Below, in pieces: positions 16,097 to 35,145 of a stretch of DNA of 41,099 nucleotides. Origin of the DNA: a virus. The first letter of the stretch is position 1, and every line of letters begins with the position of its first letter. The stretch covers positions 1 through 41,099 of IMG/VR virus record IMGVR_UViG_3300036766_000148. The stretch is one strand, 5' to 3'. A model generated the notes under the pieces. That model saw nothing but the letters and a program-made list of their open reading frames with translations, ran no database searches and was not told the origin of the DNA. The translations under genes were made by a program, and so were the position numbers.

Positions 16097-16573
16097 ATGG
16101 AATTAAAAAAGGTCGATATAAACAGTTTAAAGGAATGGGATAAGAACCCAAGGTCTATAAAACAAGTAGATTTTGAAAGGTTAAAGGCTCAGATTGTTAA
16201 ACTTGGGCAATATAAACCTCTTATTGTTACCTTAGAAAATGAAGTTATTGGGGGTAATATGAGGCTTAAGGCTTTCAAGGATTTAGGTATAAAAGAAGTT
16301 TGGGTAACAATAGTCGAGCCAAAATCAGAGCAAGAAAAACTTGAAATAGCCTTATCAGATAATGACCGAGCTGGTTATTATGATGATGACATGCTTGCTA
16401 ACCTTATTGGAGAGTTCCCTAAACTTGATCTTTCACAATTTGCAGTTGATATGAATGTGCCTATTGATTTAAAGACTTTGTTTATAGGGGGCACTCAAGG
16501 CAATGATGAACAAGAAGTTGATGAGAGTTTAGAGACAAAAAATGAGTGTCCTTCTTGCCACTATAAATGGTAG
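16097..16573 (+). CDS. ParB/Srx-like nuclease-domain protein
   Basis: 158 residues from ATG 16097. The in-frame TTG at 16064 would place the -10 box inside the coding region. The N-terminal domain (about 1-95) has LKEWDKNPRSIKQVDFERLK, PLIVTLENEVIGGNMRLKAFKDLG and EWVTI-type strands, the ParB-like fold found on phage and MGE methylases. GGNMRL is the ParB GxxR-type motif. The C-terminus holds CPSCHYKW, half of a zinc ribbon. It overlaps or abuts the cytosine methyltransferase, a known pairing. Confidence 0.8.
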   Translation: MELKKVDINSLKEWDKNPRSIKQVDFERLKAQIVKLGQYKPLIVTLENEVIGGNMRLKAFKDLGIKEVWVTIVEPKSEQEKLEIALSDNDRAGYYDDDMLANLIGEFPKLDLSQFAVDMNVPIDLKTLFIGGTQGNDEQEVDESLETKNECPSCHYKW

Positions 16574-16584
16574 TTAAAAATTAT

Positions 16585-17550
16585 ATGAATACAATCATTT
16601 CAACATTCTCAGGTTGTGGAGGTTCAAGCCTAGGTTATAAATTAGCTGGGTTTAAGGAGTTGTTAGCTATAGACTTTAACCAAAACTCAGTTGATACATT
16701 CAAGTTAAATTTCCCAGAAGTTCCTGTTTGGATGAGGGATATTACAGAAGTTAAAGCTCAAGAGATACTAGACTTTTGCAAGATTAAGCCGGGAGAATTA
16801 GATATTTTAGATGGTTCACCTCCATGCCAGGGATTCTCAATGTCAGGTAAGCGCCGAGTTATGGACCCAAGAAACCGCCTATTTGAAAGTTTTACTTATC
16901 TTATTAAAGAGCTTCAGCCTAAAGTATTTGTTATGGAGAATGTACCAGGGCAAGTGCGCGGGACTATGAAAGGGTTATTTAAAGAGATATTAGCTAGTTT
17001 AAAAGGCCTAGGTTATGAAGTTAAGGTTAAAATAATGAATGCCAAATATTACCAAGTTCCCCAAGCAAGGCAAAGACTGATTTATATAGGGGTAAGAAAA
17101 GACTTAAACAAAGTACCGAGCTTCCCTATTCCATCAGATAAAGTAATTACAGTCAAAGAAGCCCTAGAAGGATTAAAAGATATAGGGGAAGCAAAAGAAC
17201 CTAATGGCAAGGTAGCTGAAATGTATTATCAGATTATTCCAGGTCAAGGGATGGATGTATCTTTCAATAGACATTTTCACAAATCATCTTATTTTAATGT
17301 TCGTAAGCTTTCCTGGTACAAACCATCATTTACTGTAACAAAGACATTCAGTACAAGTGCTGCAGGACTCTTGCACCCAAAGGAGTTTAGATTTATGACA
17401 ATTAATGAGATTAAAAGATTATGTAGTTTCCCAGATAGTTTTCAAATGACAGGGAGTTTTACAGAACAATGGAATAGACTAGGTAATGCAGTTATGCCTA
17501 ATATGATGAAAGCAATTGCTCTAAATATAAAGGATAATATTTTAAACTAA
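16585..17550 (+). CDS. DNA (cytosine-5) methyltransferase
   Basis: 321 residues from ATG 16585; an ATG at 16567 overlapping the previous stop would add 6. All main C5-MTase motifs are present. Motif I is FSGCGGSSLGY, motif IV is GSPPCQGFS with the catalytic Cys, motif VI is MENVPG, motif VIII is QARQRLIYIG, and GNAVMP is motif X. The target recognition region lies between VIII and X and is short. No restriction partner is seen, so it probably protects phage DNA from host restriction or marks it. It is followed 1 nt later by the packaging genes. Confidence 0.95.
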   Translation: MNTIISTFSGCGGSSLGYKLAGFKELLAIDFNQNSVDTFKLNFPEVPVWMRDITEVKAQEILDFCKIKPGELDILDGSPPCQGFSMSGKRRVMDPRNRLFESFTYLIKELQPKVFVMENVPGQVRGTMKGLFKEILASLKGLGYEVKVKIMNAKYYQVPQARQRLIYIGVRKDLNKVPSFPIPSDKVITVKEALEGLKDIGEAKEPNGKVAEMYYQIIPGQGMDVSFNRHFHKSSYFNVRKLSWYKPSFTVTKTFSTSAAGLLHPKEFRFMTINEIKRLCSFPDSFQMTGSFTEQWNRLGNAVMPNMMKAIALNIKDNILN

Positions 17551-17551
17551 T

Positions 17552-17995
17552 ATGCCAGACGAAAATAAACCAATAGAAATAGTCGAGCCTGTTAATCCGA
17601 TTAAATCGGTGGATAATCGGCAACCAGATGGTAAGTTTGGACCAGGTAATAATGCTAACCCTAAAGGAAGACCCCCCAAAGGTTGGGCATTATCAGATTT
17701 GATAGAAGATGGAATGGATGAAGAAGAACCAAAAACAAAAAAACAATTTAAAGAATTGATTATTAAAAGGTTAATTGTTGAATGTGTTAATGGAAATATT
17801 ATGGCTATGCGTGAATTGTTTAACAGAATAGAAGGTATGCCTAGAATGAAAATGGAAGTTGATAGTAAAGTTGATATGAAGATTCCTGAATTAGTTGCAG
17901 TACTTGATAAAATGCTTGAAGGGGATGATTTGCCTGATGAGCCAAAGAAAGATGATAAACCCGAAGAAAATAAAGATAATCAAACAAACAGTTAG
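17552..17995 (+). CDS. DUF5681-type protein, probable terminase small subunit
   Basis: 147 residues. RQPDGKFGPGNNANPKGRPPKG (about 24-45) is the DUF5681 pattern that is often placed directly before a large terminase. It is followed by a helical region (about 47-110) and an acidic, low-complexity tail (about 125-147). The end overlaps the large-subunit gene. DNA recognition for packaging is the expected role, from position and family habit. Confidence 0.75.
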   Translation: MPDENKPIEIVEPVNPIKSVDNRQPDGKFGPGNNANPKGRPPKGWALSDLIEDGMDEEEPKTKKQFKELIIKRLIVECVNGNIMAMRELFNRIEGMPRMKMEVDSKVDMKIPELVAVLDKMLEGDDLPDEPKKDDKPEENKDNQTNS

Positions 17996-19253
17996 GACTA
18001 TATTTAAAACTTCAAAAGGTCAACCTTATGAAATGACAGATGGTCAAGCTGAATTGTTTTTGTCTATAATCGACCCCAAGATAAAATGGCTCTGGTGTTC
18101 AGCTCCAACTAGGTATGGTAAGTCAGATATTCTAGCAATGGCTATCCTATATCTTGCTTCATATAAGAAACTCAAGGTACCGATAGTAGGTGGTTCAGAG
18201 GATAAAGCTAAGAAAATCATGGAATATGTAGTTGCTCATTTGGCTGATGATGCTTCTTTATATGCAGGGCTTATCAATATTCAAGATGCCCATGATGTAG
18301 ATAAACTAAAAGTCACTGTTAGTAAAGATGCTTTGAGGTGGCGAGATGGCGGATGGATTTATATTACTTCAGTTGATTCACGAAGGGTTGGGGCTTCCCA
18401 AGGTGAAAAGGTAGTTGGTGAAGGTGGTGATGTTATTGTATTAGAAGAAGCCGGGCTTATTACAAATAAAGAACAATTTTCAAAAGTAGTTCGTATGCCA
18501 GAAGAAGATAAAGGTTGGGGTAAACTTATTATGTCTGGTAACTGTATTGAGAAAAGTGTTTTTGAAACTGCATATAATGACCCTCTTTATCATAAAGTTA
18601 GAATTGATCTTGACCAAGCAATTAAGGAGGGCAGATATACCCAGGAATATTTAGAGCAAAAGAAAGGCCAGACAACTTCAAAAGATTGGAAGCGATACTA
18701 TTTAGTTTTATTCCCGGCAGCAAATGAGTTTACAATCTTCAAACCTAAGAAGTACGAGATACTACCTAATGAGCTTAAATACTATGGTGCTGTTGATTTG
18801 GCTCTAGGTGAAGCCAAGAAGGGAAGTTTAGTGGGTATTACTATCTTAGGGGTTGATGGTAAAGGCCAAGTTTATGAGATCGATAGTATTGGAGTACAGA
18901 TTCAACCAGAAGAAACTATGCGTACAATCTTTAATTTTCCTTATAAGTTCCAAAGGTTTGGAGTTGAAAAGGTACAGTTCCAGGCTTACTTCTTAAAAGT
19001 GATTGAAGAAAAATCTAAAACTGAAGGTAAATATATCCCATTCCAAGGTATTACCCAGAACAAAAAGAAAGAAGAGCGTATTGAATCTCTTGAACCATTT
19101 ATTAATACTGGTCAAATTCTCTTTAAGGGTGATAATGAATTGTGGGATGAAATGCAAAGTTACCCCACTTCAGATCATTTGGATGTTTTAGATAGCCTTG
19201 AGATGGCTTGGAGGATAATAGGCATAGGAAAATTTGAATTCGTAATGATATAA
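17937..19253 (+). CDS. terL: Terminase large subunit
   Basis: About 438 residues from ATG 17937; ATG 17952 and 17895 are alternatives, all overlapping the previous gene. The ATPase Walker A is SAPTRYGKS (about 55-63) and Walker B is VIVLEEA. The nuclease half begins with YYGAVDLALGEA, carrying the first metal-binding Asp, and ends with HLDVLDSLEMAW, carrying the last. This is the packaging motor that cuts and translocates phage DNA into the prohead. The length is normal for the family. Confidence 0.92.
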   Translation: MSQRKMINPKKIKIIKQTVRTIFKTSKGQPYEMTDGQAELFLSIIDPKIKWLWCSAPTRYGKSDILAMAILYLASYKKLKVPIVGGSEDKAKKIMEYVVAHLADDASLYAGLINIQDAHDVDKLKVTVSKDALRWRDGGWIYITSVDSRRVGASQGEKVVGEGGDVIVLEEAGLITNKEQFSKVVRMPEEDKGWGKLIMSGNCIEKSVFETAYNDPLYHKVRIDLDQAIKEGRYTQEYLEQKKGQTTSKDWKRYYLVLFPAANEFTIFKPKKYEILPNELKYYGAVDLALGEAKKGSLVGITILGVDGKGQVYEIDSIGVQIQPEETMRTIFNFPYKFQRFGVEKVQFQAYFLKVIEEKSKTEGKYIPFQGITQNKKKEERIESLEPFINTGQILFKGDNELWDEMQSYPTSDHLDVLDSLEMAWRIIGIGKFEFVMI

Positions 19254-19259: not shown

Positions 19260-21263
19260 ATGAATCTTTTTCAAAGAGTAGGTAAAACAATAGGTAAATT
19301 CTTCTTAGGTAATAGTACCCCAGGACTTTGGAGTTGGGCAATGCCAGGACAATGGAATAAGAAAATGATGCTCGAGCAATATACCCGCTATGTTTATGCA
19401 GTTGTCTCAGCAATAGCCCAAGAAGCAGCTAAGGTCAATCTTGAGATGTACAAAAATGATAAGGTAGTCGATAACCACCCATTCCTTTCACTTATTAAAA
19501 GACCTAACCCTGATGTATCACAATTCCAGTTTTTGGAAATGCACTTTACTTATATGTTGCTTGCTGGAGAATCTTATTGGTACCTTGCGCGCGGACTTAA
19601 TAGTTTAAAAACAAAAGAACTTCATTTACTTCGACCAGATTTAATGCAAGTTGTTGTTGATAAAACAGACCCTAGGGGAATGGTTGCTGGATATTTAATG
19701 GTTAAACCAGATGGAACTAAAGAACCATTTAATAAAGATGAAGTACTTCATTTCAAAATGCCTAACCCATTAGATCGATATTATGGATTAGGGACTATCC
19801 AAGCAGCTAAGACTTATATTCAAACTGAAGAGTATGCTTCAACCTGGACTAAGAACTCTATATTTAATTCAGGTCGCCCATCAGGAATATTAAATGTTAA
19901 AGGGGTAATTGATAAGGATGAGTTTGAGCAATTAAAGAAACAATTTAAAGAAAATTATTCAGGAACTGAAAATGCTGGTAAGACAATGATGCTTAAAGGT
20001 GCCGATGGTTTGGATTATCAAAAGCTTGGTATGGAACTTCAAGAGGTAGCACTTAAAGAATTAAAAGACATGACCCGCGATGACATTATGGTTATGTTTA
20101 GAGTAAGCAAAACTATTCTTGGAATTACTGATGATGTAAATCGTGCTAATGCTTTGGAAGCAAGAGAAGTCTTTACCCGAAATGTCATAGTCCCAACTGT
20201 TGACAGAATGATGGACCACCTTAATGCTTTCTTAATCCCTGATTGGGGAGATGGATTCTTATTAAGTTATGAAGACCCAACACTTCAAAGTGATGCAGAC
20301 AGATTAGCTGAATGGACTGCAGGGCATAATAAATGGCTTACTACAAATGATATTCGTGGAGAAAGACAACTTGACCCAATTCCTGGAGGGGATGTTATAA
20401 GAGAACCATTTAGTTTGACTCCAACTTCTGGTGACCCTAAAGGGGATTTGGCAAGTGCTCCTGTTATAACACCAACTAAAGGTTTAAAAAAAAAAGACTT
20501 AGAAGTAAATAAAAAACTCCGTGAAAAAATCTTTACAGAATCCCTATTTTCAATACAAGATCACTGGATGGGTCTTTATCAAGGCATTATGGATACAGAG
20601 TTTAAACTTCAGCAAAAGGAAATTCTTGCAAATAATAAAAAGTCTAGTTTCATAGAATGGTTATTTGATGTCGATGCTTCACAGACCCGCATAGTTGGTA
20701 AACTCTTCCCATTAGGGATTGAGTTAATGAAAGCAGCAGCTAAGGTTGCATTAGAACTTGCCGGGGATAAAGAAACTGAATTAGAAGTTGTTAATAGAAT
20801 TACTGATTATATCCATGACAGAACTACCCGCCTTGCAACTGCTACAAATGATGAAACTATAAAATCTATTGAGGCAGCAATATCTGAAGGTACTCAAAAT
20901 GGTGAATCAGTTGCCAAACTTAGAGAGAGAGTCAAAGAAGTTTACAGTTATGCTACAGATACTAGAGCTCAAAGGATTGCGCGAACTGAAAGTATTGCAG
21001 TAAGCAATGAAGGAAGCCTTGCAGCTTATCGTCAATCCCCTCTTGTTACTGGTAAAGAATGGGCAACAACTGGTGACCCTTGTGAATTTTGTGCAGAGCT
21101 TGAAGGTAAAGTAGTTGAGATTGATTCTAACTTTGCAAACCTAGGCCATGATTTTACAGGTGCAGATGGTGGAAAATTAAAGATTGATTATGAGGATATT
21201 GAACATCCCCCAATTCACCCAAATTGTCGCTGTGTATTATTGCCAGTAGTCCTTGAAAATTAA
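19260..21263 (+). CDS. Portal protein fused to MuF head-morphogenesis domain
   Basis: 667 residues. Residues 1-405 are a HK97-type portal (YTRYVYAVVSAIAQEAAKV, HPFLSLIKRPNP, PFNKDEVLHFK, SKTILGITDD). Residues about 420-667 carry the MuF/SPP1 gp7 domain: RIARTESIAVSNEGSLAAYR, CEFCAELEGKVV and the closing HPNCRC. The junction (about 408-412) is coded by a run of ten A. A -1 slip there ends translation after five codons, giving a free portal of 417 residues, a normal portal length. A +1 slip also stops quickly. So one gene may give both portal and portal-MuF. Confidence 0.92.
   Translation: MNLFQRVGKTIGKFFLGNSTPGLWSWAMPGQWNKKMMLEQYTRYVYAVVSAIAQEAAKVNLEMYKNDKVVDNHPFLSLIKRPNPDVSQFQFLEMHFTYMLLAGESYWYLARGLNSLKTKELHLLRPDLMQVVVDKTDPRGMVAGYLMVKPDGTKEPFNKDEVLHFKMPNPLDRYYGLGTIQAAKTYIQTEEYASTWTKNSIFNSGRPSGILNVKGVIDKDEFEQLKKQFKENYSGTENAGKTMMLKGADGLDYQKLGMELQEVALKELKDMTRDDIMVMFRVSKTILGITDDVNRANALEAREVFTRNVIVPTVDRMMDHLNAFLIPDWGDGFLLSYEDPTLQSDADRLAEWTAGHNKWLTTNDIRGERQLDPIPGGDVIREPFSLTPTSGDPKGDLASAPVITPTKGLKKKDLEVNKKLREKIFTESLFSIQDHWMGLYQGIMDTEFKLQQKEILANNKKSSFIEWLFDVDASQTRIVGKLFPLGIELMKAAAKVALELAGDKETELEVVNRITDYIHDRTTRLATATNDETIKSIEAAISEGTQNGESVAKLRERVKEVYSYATDTRAQRIARTESIAVSNEGSLAAYRQSPLVTGKEWATTGDPCEFCAELEGKVVEIDSNFANLGHDFTGADGGKLKIDYEDIEHPPIHPNCRCVLLPVVLEN
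20486..20495 (+). other. A10 run at the portal-MuF junction, likely slippage site
   Basis: Zero-frame codons are TTA AAA AAA AAA GAC. A -1 shift continues AGA CTT AGA AGT AAA and stops at TAA (20510-20512). A +1 shift stops at TAG (20500-20502). Either slip truncates exactly after the portal domain. Confidence 0.6.
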
Positions 21264-30163: not shown

Positions 30164-32146
30164 ATGGATGAATTAAAAAAGATTCTAGCCAAAAAAGTTG
30201 ATGAGAGAACTGCTGCGGAGTTGCAGTATTTGGAACTTCATAAACAAGAACTAAGCACAGATCAGCTTCAGCAATTGCAGGATGAAAAATCCACAGTTGT
30301 TAAATTAGAAAATGCCGAGAAGAAAGAATTAGATGGTATTTTTGAAACTAAAGATTTAGGCGATGGTGAAGTTCAAGCAATTGTTGCTTCAGATTCAGTT
30401 GATAGGCATGGAGAGATAATTGATATTGCTGGGCTTAGTGTTAAAAAGTATATGGATAACCCGGTTGTTCAATGGGCACATGATTATGATAAACCCCCAA
30501 TAGCACAAGCTACTAAAGTTTGGAAAAGTGGTGGTAAGTTAATGGCCAAGATGAAGTTTGCTTTAGAAGAAAATCCTTTTGCTAAACAAGTTTATGATTT
30601 AATTAAAGGTGGATTCTTAAATGCAGTTTCAATTGGATTTATACCTCTTGAGATGGATGGTAATACTTTTACAAAATCTGAGATGGTTGAATTTTCAGTT
30701 GTACCAGTTCCAGCCAATTCTGAAGCATTGATTACTGCTCGTAAATTGGGGCTTGACACTAGTATTTTGAAATCCTACAATGTAGTTATGTACAAATTAG
30801 AAGAGATCCTCGCAAAAGCAGTAGCCGATTTAACAATTGGTGAAATAAAATTCCTCAAAGAGAATGTTGAAAAATTGACACAAGCTCAAGCTAAAAAGTA
30901 TGCATCTGTATTGAAAGAAGAAACTCAAGAAACTGAAGAAGAGAAAGTTGCTCGTGAAGCAAAAGAAAAAGAAGAAGCAGACAAAGTAGCTGCAGATAAA
31001 GCAGAAGCTGAAAAAGTTGCTGCAGGTCAAGGTGAAACAGCAGAAGCACTTAAGAAACTCCAAGCAGAAGTTGAAGCATTAAAGAGTGCAGACCCAATTG
31101 CTTTCCGAAACTTCTCAATCCAAGCAGGTAAAAAAGGTGATGTCTCAAAAGAGATGAAATTCTTACTTTATGCTAGGGGCGTAAAAAGTGGTAATTTCTC
31201 AGAATATCTACAAGTAGTTGGCAAAGATGCCATGAATACTACTGATGATGGTGTAGTTTTACCTCCAGCAGAATTTGTTACTGAAATAACTCGTCTTGAA
31301 GAATCCTTTGGAGTAGGTCGAAGATTTGCTACAGTTAGACGCTCAGCATCCGGGAATGGTATTAAATTCCTTTTGGGTGATGATGATGTGTCAATTTATG
31401 ATACAGCTGAGAGTGGAGTTAAGAAATCCACCAAACTTAGTTATGATTCCCAGACCTTACTTTGGAGAAAGTTTGCAGCTATCTTACCTATAACTGATGA
31501 ACTTAATGAAGATTCAGCTATTGATCTTTGGACAGATGCTACAAATAGATTTGCAAGAGCTTATGCAAGACAAGAAGATCAGTTAATCTTTACTGAAAGT
31601 GATGACACTGGACCAAAGAATAAAGGTATTACTACAGTTGCAGGTACAAATCTAGTTGAGATTGCAAACCTTGCAGCTCTTAATTTTGAAAAATTAGTAG
31701 ACATGATCTTTGGAGTACCATCAGCTTCTGGTGATAATGGTAGATTCTTCTTGAATAGAACATTCCTTGGTGAAGTTATGAAGATGAAAGATCAAAATGA
31801 CCGACCACTTTGGTTGCCAGGAGTAGCTTCAGGAGCACCTGCAACAATCCTTAATAGACCTTATGAATTAACTGAAGTCTTGAATAAAGTTGAAGATGCA
31901 GACCCAGGTGAAGCAATAATGGTTTATGGAGATTTGAAATTCGTAACTCTTGGAGAAAGAAATACTTTGAGCGTCAAGATGTTTGACACAGGTATAGTTG
32001 GTGACCCAGATGAAGAAGATCAAGATACAAATACAATCAATCTTATGACTCAAGATGCACAAGCAATGAGAGTTGTTAAAAGAATGAATGCCATTGTAAG
32101 ATTCCCAGCAGCTTTCTCAGTATTGAAACTTGAAAGCGGATCTTAA
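30164..32146 (+). CDS. HK97-type prohead protease fused to major capsid protein
   Basis: 660 residues. Residues about 55-195 are an S78 prohead protease: AIVASDSVDRHGEIID, the catalytic His106 in QWAHDY, Ser156 in NAVSIGF, and MVEFSVVPVPAN. Residues about 210-320 are a charged helical scaffold (delta-like) region. Residues about 330-660 are the HK97-fold capsid protein (VLPPAEFVTEITRLEESFGVGRRF, LPITDELNEDS, FFLNRTFLGEVMKMKD, MRVVKRMNAIVRFPAAFSVL). The segments starting at Met1 and Met209 resemble each other (L-x-x-I-L-A-K-x-V), a sign of duplication or gene fusion. An internal promoter and start at 30788 could give free capsid. Confidence 0.93.
   Translation: MDELKKILAKKVDERTAAELQYLELHKQELSTDQLQQLQDEKSTVVKLENAEKKELDGIFETKDLGDGEVQAIVASDSVDRHGEIIDIAGLSVKKYMDNPVVQWAHDYDKPPIAQATKVWKSGGKLMAKMKFALEENPFAKQVYDLIKGGFLNAVSIGFIPLEMDGNTFTKSEMVEFSVVPVPANSEALITARKLGLDTSILKSYNVVMYKLEEILAKAVADLTIGEIKFLKENVEKLTQAQAKKYASVLKEETQETEEEKVAREAKEKEEADKVAADKAEAEKVAAGQGETAEALKKLQAEVEALKSADPIAFRNFSIQAGKKGDVSKEMKFLLYARGVKSGNFSEYLQVVGKDAMNTTDDGVVLPPAEFVTEITRLEESFGVGRRFATVRRSASGNGIKFLLGDDDVSIYDTAESGVKKSTKLSYDSQTLLWRKFAAILPITDELNEDSAIDLWTDATNRFARAYARQEDQLIFTESDDTGPKNKGITTVAGTNLVEIANLAALNFEKLVDMIFGVPSASGDNGRFFLNRTFLGEVMKMKDQNDRPLWLPGVASGAPATILNRPYELTEVLNKVEDADPGEAIMVYGDLKFVTLGERNTLSVKMFDTGIVGDPDEEDQDTNTINLMTQDAQAMRVVKRMNAIVRFPAAFSVLKLESGS
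30753..30787 (+). promoter_or_regulatory. Consensus promoter nested inside the protease-capsid gene
   Basis: TTGACA at 30753-30758, a 17-bp spacer, TACAAT at 30776-30781, and an in-frame ATG (Met209) at 30788, 6 nt later. It is the same leaderless layout as at other phage promoters and falls exactly at the protease-to-capsid boundary. Confidence 0.65.
30788..32146 (+). CDS. Predicted free major capsid protein from internal start
   Basis: 452 residues, in frame with the fusion, starting at Met209 (MYKLEEILAKAVADL). It would hold the scaffold-like helices and the whole HK97 capsid fold without the protease. A consensus promoter ends 6 nt upstream. Capsid protein is needed at hundreds of copies per head and protease at few, so a second product would solve the ratio problem of a fused gene. 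This is a prediction from sequence. Confidence 0.55.
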   Translation: MYKLEEILAKAVADLTIGEIKFLKENVEKLTQAQAKKYASVLKEETQETEEEKVAREAKEKEEADKVAADKAEAEKVAAGQGETAEALKKLQAEVEALKSADPIAFRNFSIQAGKKGDVSKEMKFLLYARGVKSGNFSEYLQVVGKDAMNTTDDGVVLPPAEFVTEITRLEESFGVGRRFATVRRSASGNGIKFLLGDDDVSIYDTAESGVKKSTKLSYDSQTLLWRKFAAILPITDELNEDSAIDLWTDATNRFARAYARQEDQLIFTESDDTGPKNKGITTVAGTNLVEIANLAALNFEKLVDMIFGVPSASGDNGRFFLNRTFLGEVMKMKDQNDRPLWLPGVASGAPATILNRPYELTEVLNKVEDADPGEAIMVYGDLKFVTLGERNTLSVKMFDTGIVGDPDEEDQDTNTINLMTQDAQAMRVVKRMNAIVRFPAAFSVLKLESGS

Positions 32147-34534: not shown

Positions 34535-34852
34535 ATGAGTGATACTCTTGATTTAGATATTTTGGCACCAGAGAAAAAAACTGTTAAAGTAAATGGTAAG
34601 TTATATGATATTAATCCTCTTAAATTAAAGGATTTTTTAACACTTCAAAGACTTTTAAAAGCCTCAGCAGGTAAAAGTGAAACTGAAATGGTAAATACAA
34701 TGGGAGATATTTTTGAATCTTTGAAACCAATTGTACCTAATATTGATGAAATGGATTTAACAATGAAGCAAACTATTGCTTTACTTGATTTTATTTATAA
34801 ACAAGAAGAGTTAGCACAAGCACAAGATACACAAAAAAAAACAGAAGTTTAA
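34535..34852 (+). CDS. Tail assembly chaperone (G-like)
   Basis: 105 residues, helical after a short beta start (KKTVKVNGKLYDINPLKLKDFLTLQRLL), as in lambda G-type chaperones. It ends in a Gln/Lys-rich tail coded over a run of nine A (34833-34841). A -1 slip there enters an open frame that continues into the 34903 gene with no stop, giving a G-T type fusion of about 201 residues. It lies directly before the tape measure, the standard place. Confidence 0.8.
   Translation: MSDTLDLDILAPEKKTVKVNGKLYDINPLKLKDFLTLQRLLKASAGKSETEMVNTMGDIFESLKPIVPNIDEMDLTMKQTIALLDFIYKQEELAQAQDTQKKTEV
34833..34841 (+). other. A9 slippery run for -1 frameshift in the tail chaperone gene
   Basis: Zero-frame codons are CAA AAA AAA ACA. 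After a -1 slip the next codons are AAC AGA AGT TTA AGC, and the frame stays open to 35145. This is the same logic as the lambda G/GT frameshift. Polymerase slippage on the A run would give the same result. Confidence 0.75.
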
Positions 34853-34890
34853 GCCTCGCAATAACATTCTTCATTAAACATTATCCTGCA

Positions 34891-34902
34891 TATACTATTG
34901 AA
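34891..34902 (+). promoter_or_regulatory. Possible -10 box before ATG 34903
   Basis: TATACT at 34891-34896, 6 nt before the ATG, without a -35 box or a correct TGn extension. It may be chance, since the frameshift explains expression of this frame. Confidence 0.3.
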
Positions 34903-35145
34903 ATGGTTTTGAATGAATATGTTGCAACTTTTACTGGTATGTTAAAATCTGCTCAAAAATTAGATGCTGGAGAAAAACTAGAGTTAATTAATATTATATC
35001 TGTACCTCATTTAAAAGGTAATGGTGGCAAAAAAGTTAGTGATATTTATAGAAACATATTAAACTCTGATGAAGAAATTGATCTTGAAGTAATTAAAAAA
35101 GACAGACAACTTCTACTTAAAAGATTAAGGGGTAAAGTGTTATAA
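34903..35145 (+). CDS. T-like part of the tail chaperone (frameshift extension)
   Basis: 80 residues from ATG 34903, but the same frame is open back to the A9 run, adding about 21 codons (coding SLAITFFIKHYPAYTIE). Most likely it is translated mainly as the extension of the chaperone by -1 frameshift. A TATACT box at 34891-34896, 6 nt before the ATG, leaves open a separate leaderless product. Helical (LKSAQKLDAGEKLELINI, DRQLLLKRLRG). Confidence 0.75.
   Translation: MVLNEYVATFTGMLKSAQKLDAGEKLELINIISVPHLKGNGGKKVSDIYRNILNSDEEIDLEVIKKDRQLLLKRLRGKVL

Follow-up and report, generated by a model that had tools for sequence, protein, structure and literature searches.

The window analysed here is a stretch of viral DNA of 41,099 nucleotides (IMG/VR record IMGVR_UViG_3300036766_000148). 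Directly downstream of its terminase large subunit gene lies a gene of 667 codons in which an HK97-type portal is fused to a MuF domain. Assignment of the N-terminal part is based on the Phage_portal domain, the adjoining terminase and a match to the GTA/HK97 portal fold, while the C-terminal part is identified as a MuF (SPP1 gp7) head protein by its Phage_Mu_F domain (PF04233). The fusion was modelled with AlphaFold2 at a mean pLDDT of 79.8 and a pTM of 0.45, with residues 382–414 falling below a pLDDT of 50 and the first MuF helix beginning at residue 411. The modelled portal part resembled the GTA and HK97 portals, which are about 340–370 residues long (Foldseek E 5e-19 and 3.5e-15). Elsewhere in the window, a C-5 cytosine DNA methylase gene (16567–17550) is located close to the terminase genes, prohead protease (Peptidase_S78) and major capsid (Phage_capsid) domains are combined in a single gene (30164–32146) about 9 kb 3' of the portal gene, and a 666-residue protein of the phage genome (11706–13706) carries two glycosyltransferase domains, of the GT1 and GT2 types.

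Table 1 Features of the portal-MuF locus and of the tail-chaperone site, with positions given for the window.
Feature	Position	Strand	Evidence
Terminase large subunit gene, directly 5' of the portal-MuF gene	17895..19253	+	PHROG 38, E 4e-36
Portal-MuF fusion gene, 667 aa, ATG start	19260..21263	+	PF04860 Phage_portal E 1.4e-63; PF04233 Phage_Mu_F E 1.6e-16; PHROG 2662/12 portal
Portal domain, residues 45-367	19392..20360	+	Pfam match
Predicted disordered linker, residues 382-414	20403..20501	+	pLDDT <50
Upstream in-frame heptamer U_UUA_AAA	20483-20489	+	sequence
A10 run, candidate slippery site	20486..20495	+	sequence; same position in L009
In-frame heptamers A_AAA_AAA	20486-20492 and 20489-20495	+	sequence
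+1-frame TAG stop, 413-aa product	20500..20502	+	sequence
-1-frame TAA stop after R-L-R-S-K, 417-aa product	20510..20512	+	sequence
MuF (SPP1 gp7-like) domain, residues 536-660	20865..21239	+	Pfam PF04233
A9 run, predicted tail-chaperone -1 frameshift site	34833..34841	+	matching A9 in relative at L282:6498

Ten consecutive A residues form the final base of codon 409 (TTA) and the whole of codons 410–412 of the fusion gene (...ACT AAA GGT TTA AAA AAA AAA GAC TTA GAA...), at the point where the disordered linker meets the first MuF helix. The first-pass annotation had placed the run at these codons and at the boundary between the domains; direct inspection of the sequence verified its coordinates, and the Pfam matches and the model agree with its position in the linker. 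The predicted ends of the slipped products were likewise reproduced. An extra A, or a −1 slip of the ribosome, leads through R-L-R-S-K to TAA after 417 residues, and the loss of one A, or a +1 shift, leads to TAG after 413 residues. Given the length of the GTA and HK97 portals, either short product would be a complete portal. The run has two features of a dnaX-type site, at least nine A or T within a coding region and nearby stops in each of the alternative frames.

Runs of nine A or T cause efficient slippage of bacterial RNA polymerase, as in Thermus dnaX, where transcriptional slippage occurs on nine A with stops in both other frames, and among dnaX genes at large the change of one base can swap the product that slippage yields (PMC5009743, PMC1088944). 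Like the dnaX gene of Thermus thermophilus (with the E. coli and Chlorobium-type genes), the window gene is one open reading frame with a run of nine or more A and stops in both other frames nearby, the short product would lose a C-terminal domain, and the roles of the frames are reversed in some relatives. In contrast to dnaX, the site in the window is in a phage structural gene, and slippage is predicted here from sequence. The A10 run is probably a dnaX-like recoding site, at which transcriptional slippage, −1 ribosomal frameshifting or both would yield portal as well as portal-MuF. Unslipped reading would produce the 667-residue fusion, while RNA polymerase adding or dropping A residues in the run, or the ribosome stepping back by one on A_AAA_AAA, would shift reading to a frame that terminates after a few codons, giving a complete portal without MuF. 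Portal rings would then hold both subunits, with MuF kept inside the head. The logic would be that of dnaX, whose run is read in frame by some organisms, while others have the reversed arrangement. We infer that the run is slippery in vivo and that the virion incorporates both products.

Taken alone, the A10 run in the window is not improbable, because the portal-MuF gene acquires an A10 in 23% of trials in which the synonymous codons of the window are shuffled, and it is the comparison with relatives that takes the case beyond chance. Runs of at least eight A are nonetheless scarce in the window, with two observed against 10.5 expected when synonymous codons were shuffled in all genes, a shortage that is weaker under an order-3 Markov model (2 versus 6.8, range 0–16). 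The only such run besides the A10 is an A9 at the end of a chaperone open reading frame (34535–34852), from which the −1 frame is open into 34903–35145, before the tape measure gene. The region 34535–35145 has the form of a tail assembly chaperone pair, a typical predicted gpG/gpGT frameshift with A9 as the slip site. The phage of locus L009, the closest relative found, carries an A9 at the same chaperone site with a first chaperone open reading frame that is just 43% identical, and in both phages, over the whole window and the L009 contig beyond its base 1000, the predicted recoding sites coincide with the two longest A runs. The chaperone A9 thus supports the placement of long A runs at predicted recoding sites in this phage. 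As proposed for the portal, the −1 shift in gpG/gpGT gives a minor structural or assembly protein with a C-terminal extension, although the gene and its function are different.

L009 was recovered by a family profile scan, while neither a scan of viral contigs with the single protein nor one for the exact motif yielded relatives, and megablast against a phage collection found no near-identical phages. Its portal is 87% identical to that of the window and it has an A10 at the same junction, within linker DNA that has diverged on either side of the run. The frames are reversed: in L009 the portal frame terminates after R-L-K-K-K-V, and MuF is read on in the −1 frame. L067 (T9), L071 (A8), L087 (T7), L203 and L204 (both A7) likewise require a −1 step at their runs, and in all six loci the MuF part lies in an overlapping −1 open reading frame, though MuF of L067 may also start anew at an ATG behind AAAGG. 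Every frame break at a run was −1, and no +1 state at a run was found among the portal-MuF loci compared. Other relatives are fused in frame and carry a run, for example the L020 type (A9 or A10, kept in 10 of 10 clade members compared), L110 and L111 (T10) and the cultured Geobacillus phage GBK2 and Bacillus phage Silence (T9). A search for the genus of the L020 type recovered only a Clostridium MAG. Six loci with small start/stop overlaps (L063, L105, L108, L109) or with no overlap (L132, L155) were treated as separate genes rather than slips, and L080 was left out because it has no long run and its shift point could not be pinned.

The length of the run varies among relatives, from A8 to A10 and from T7 to T10, and L009, L071, L067 and L087 would each need one more base to be fused in frame. 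Such a pattern could reflect a length-variable tract at the level of DNA, with replication slippage toggling between fused and unfused virions or with the −1 contigs being recent indel variants. This is unlikely, given the lack of a +1 state and the comparison of L203 with L204, which retain the same A7 break although their DNA is only 90% identical (over 2.7 kb, no gaps). Differences between their MuF parts fall mostly at third codon positions (24/13/76), and on this evidence selection acts on the −1 frame, which is no slip of assembly.

The wider comparison comprised 147 different loci, gathered by profile scans, in which a portal is followed by MuF. Across the 141 loci covered by the homopolymer count, 19 of the 20 homopolymers of at least nine bases were in the linker, a zone of 180 bases or 9% of the length (p 3e-19, uncorrected for kinship). 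Many of the run-bearing relatives fall in two clades, so these counts are not independent, and the run or −1 break states occupy about seven or eight separate places on the portal tree. When synonymous codons were shuffled in the 129 in-frame genes, 9.5 such homopolymers were expected in the linker and 9.3 outside it, compared with 18 and 1 observed. Linker runs occur as A (Lys) or as T (Phe), suggesting that it is the bases rather than the peptide that are kept, and stops in both other frames are, as a rule, nearer at the run than at control positions in the same genes. For junction runs, this comparison of sequences across relatives is decisive against chance.

The same figures bear on the idea that the −1 relatives are homopolymer errors of metagenome assembly and the in-frame runs no more than neutral stretches of Lys or Phe within the disordered linker. 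The −1 homopolymer loci do come from IMG/VR contigs, mostly metagenome assemblies, and an A10 in the portal-MuF gene is not rare under synonymous shuffling. However, errors would be expected in both directions and at other runs, whereas the breaks are all −1, and 130 of 134 in-frame genes are free of internal stops. Moreover, L203 and L204 agree despite their divergence, and linkers hold twice the expected number of runs while the remainder of the genes holds a tenth, making this explanation improbable.

Between L089 and L093, both of the L020 clade, identity falls from 86% in the portal part to about 28% in the MuF part, and the drop coincides exactly with the A run. The run might therefore be a recombination seam, kept as microhomology behind which MuF modules are swapped, and have no part in recoding. 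We consider this improbable, as it would explain neither the selected −1 arrangements nor the nearby stops in both frames.

Recoding at the junction could proceed by either of two routes. Transcriptional slippage would be expected to dominate on runs of A9–A10. A possible alternative, to which we give less weight, is that the two products arise mainly through −1 ribosomal frameshifting on A_AAA_AAA or U_UUA_AAA, in the style of tail chaperones, rather than through polymerase slippage. Phased X_XXY_YYZ heptamers are present in all the −1 homopolymer cases, and in the window both U_UUA_AAA and A_AAA_AAA are in frame. The shorter runs of the −1 relatives (A7 in L203 and L204, T7 in L087, A8 in L071) fit ribosomal slippage on such heptamers and are too short for efficient slippage by polymerase. 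The uniform −1 direction of the breaks, a strong Shine-Dalgarno-like stretch and a hairpin in L067, and a U_UUU_UUA slip site in phage Emery (described below) point the same way. Against a mainly ribosomal mechanism, the runs in the window and the L020 clade, at 9–10 bases, are longer than a heptamer requires, and no clear stimulator (downstream structure or upstream Shine-Dalgarno) was found in the window and none conserved in the T clade, a strong candidate being seen only in L067.

A dnaX-like site is not a general requirement of the fused gene. In L189 and L010 (about 50% identity) an AAG codon interrupts the run (GGA TTA AAG AAA AAA GCT) of an in-frame fusion, in L190–L193 it is absent from in-frame fusions, and it is also absent from L100 and L101, which are slightly more distant than the L020 clade. 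Most fused members of the family, the next nearest relatives included, have no run, and these sequences indicate that a portal-MuF of this family can work without it. With in-frame fusions and a broken or missing run in many relatives, L189/L010 and L190–L193 next to the window among them, a mixed ring would not be obligatory. The first-pass annotation had named relatives with synonymously broken runs as evidence against its reading, and L189 and L010 in part provide this. The suggestion that one gene makes two products is nevertheless well supported by comparison, through the retention of the run with its frame reversed in L009, its recurrence at the junction in other lineages and the exclusively −1 breaks. 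The proposed ratio of twelve portals to a few portal-MuF copies is not supported as stated. The unslipped frame in the window is the fusion, which would be the majority product unless slippage were very efficient, and the fusion is common among relatives that lack a run.

In SPP1, MuF proteins are present at one or two copies in the head, and MuF carries many phage-encoded toxins (PMC5576092). Unlike in the window, the SPP1 portal (gp6) and MuF (gp7) are encoded by separate genes. The junction run touches on the question of how a 12-fold portal ring acquires few MuF, or whether fused phages include twelve, and with a predicted slip site recurring at the seam, the matter of MuF copy number becomes testable. 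Homopolymer runs at the seam could, as a tentative generalisation, govern the number of portal subunits, out of twelve, that bear an internal MuF arm in a wide range of phages, with single-base changes in run length reversing the default product and the make-up of the ring evolving by slippage. Annotation of portal genes with a frame break at the junction as broken, or as two separate genes, should accordingly be avoided.

In the open-access literature, we found no description of a slip site conserved where portal and MuF join. Portal-MuF fusions are known in actinobacteriophages, such as the Microbacterium clusters EA and EB (PMC7302621), and share the domain fusion of the window but are described as plain fusions without recoding. 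The nearest precedent is Brevibacillus (formerly P. larvae) phage Emery gp4/gp5 (KC595516), in which a slip was annotated in 2014 in a 'head morphogenesis' gene (PMC4168068). Its record is a two-piece join (L281:3171-5350), with a TTTTTTA heptamer that is consistent with the −1 shift. The first open reading frame of the pair gives a weak T4-type portal match, below the Pfam cut-off, and the extension ends in a MuF-like part as judged by eye. As in the window, the −1 slip is predicted between portal-like and MuF-like parts; in contrast to the window, the portal is of another family, and the authors saw a head morphogenesis gene, with no portal-MuF junction and no conserved set. The Emery record may lack a named portal because the portal-like open reading frame carries the 'head morphogenesis' name.
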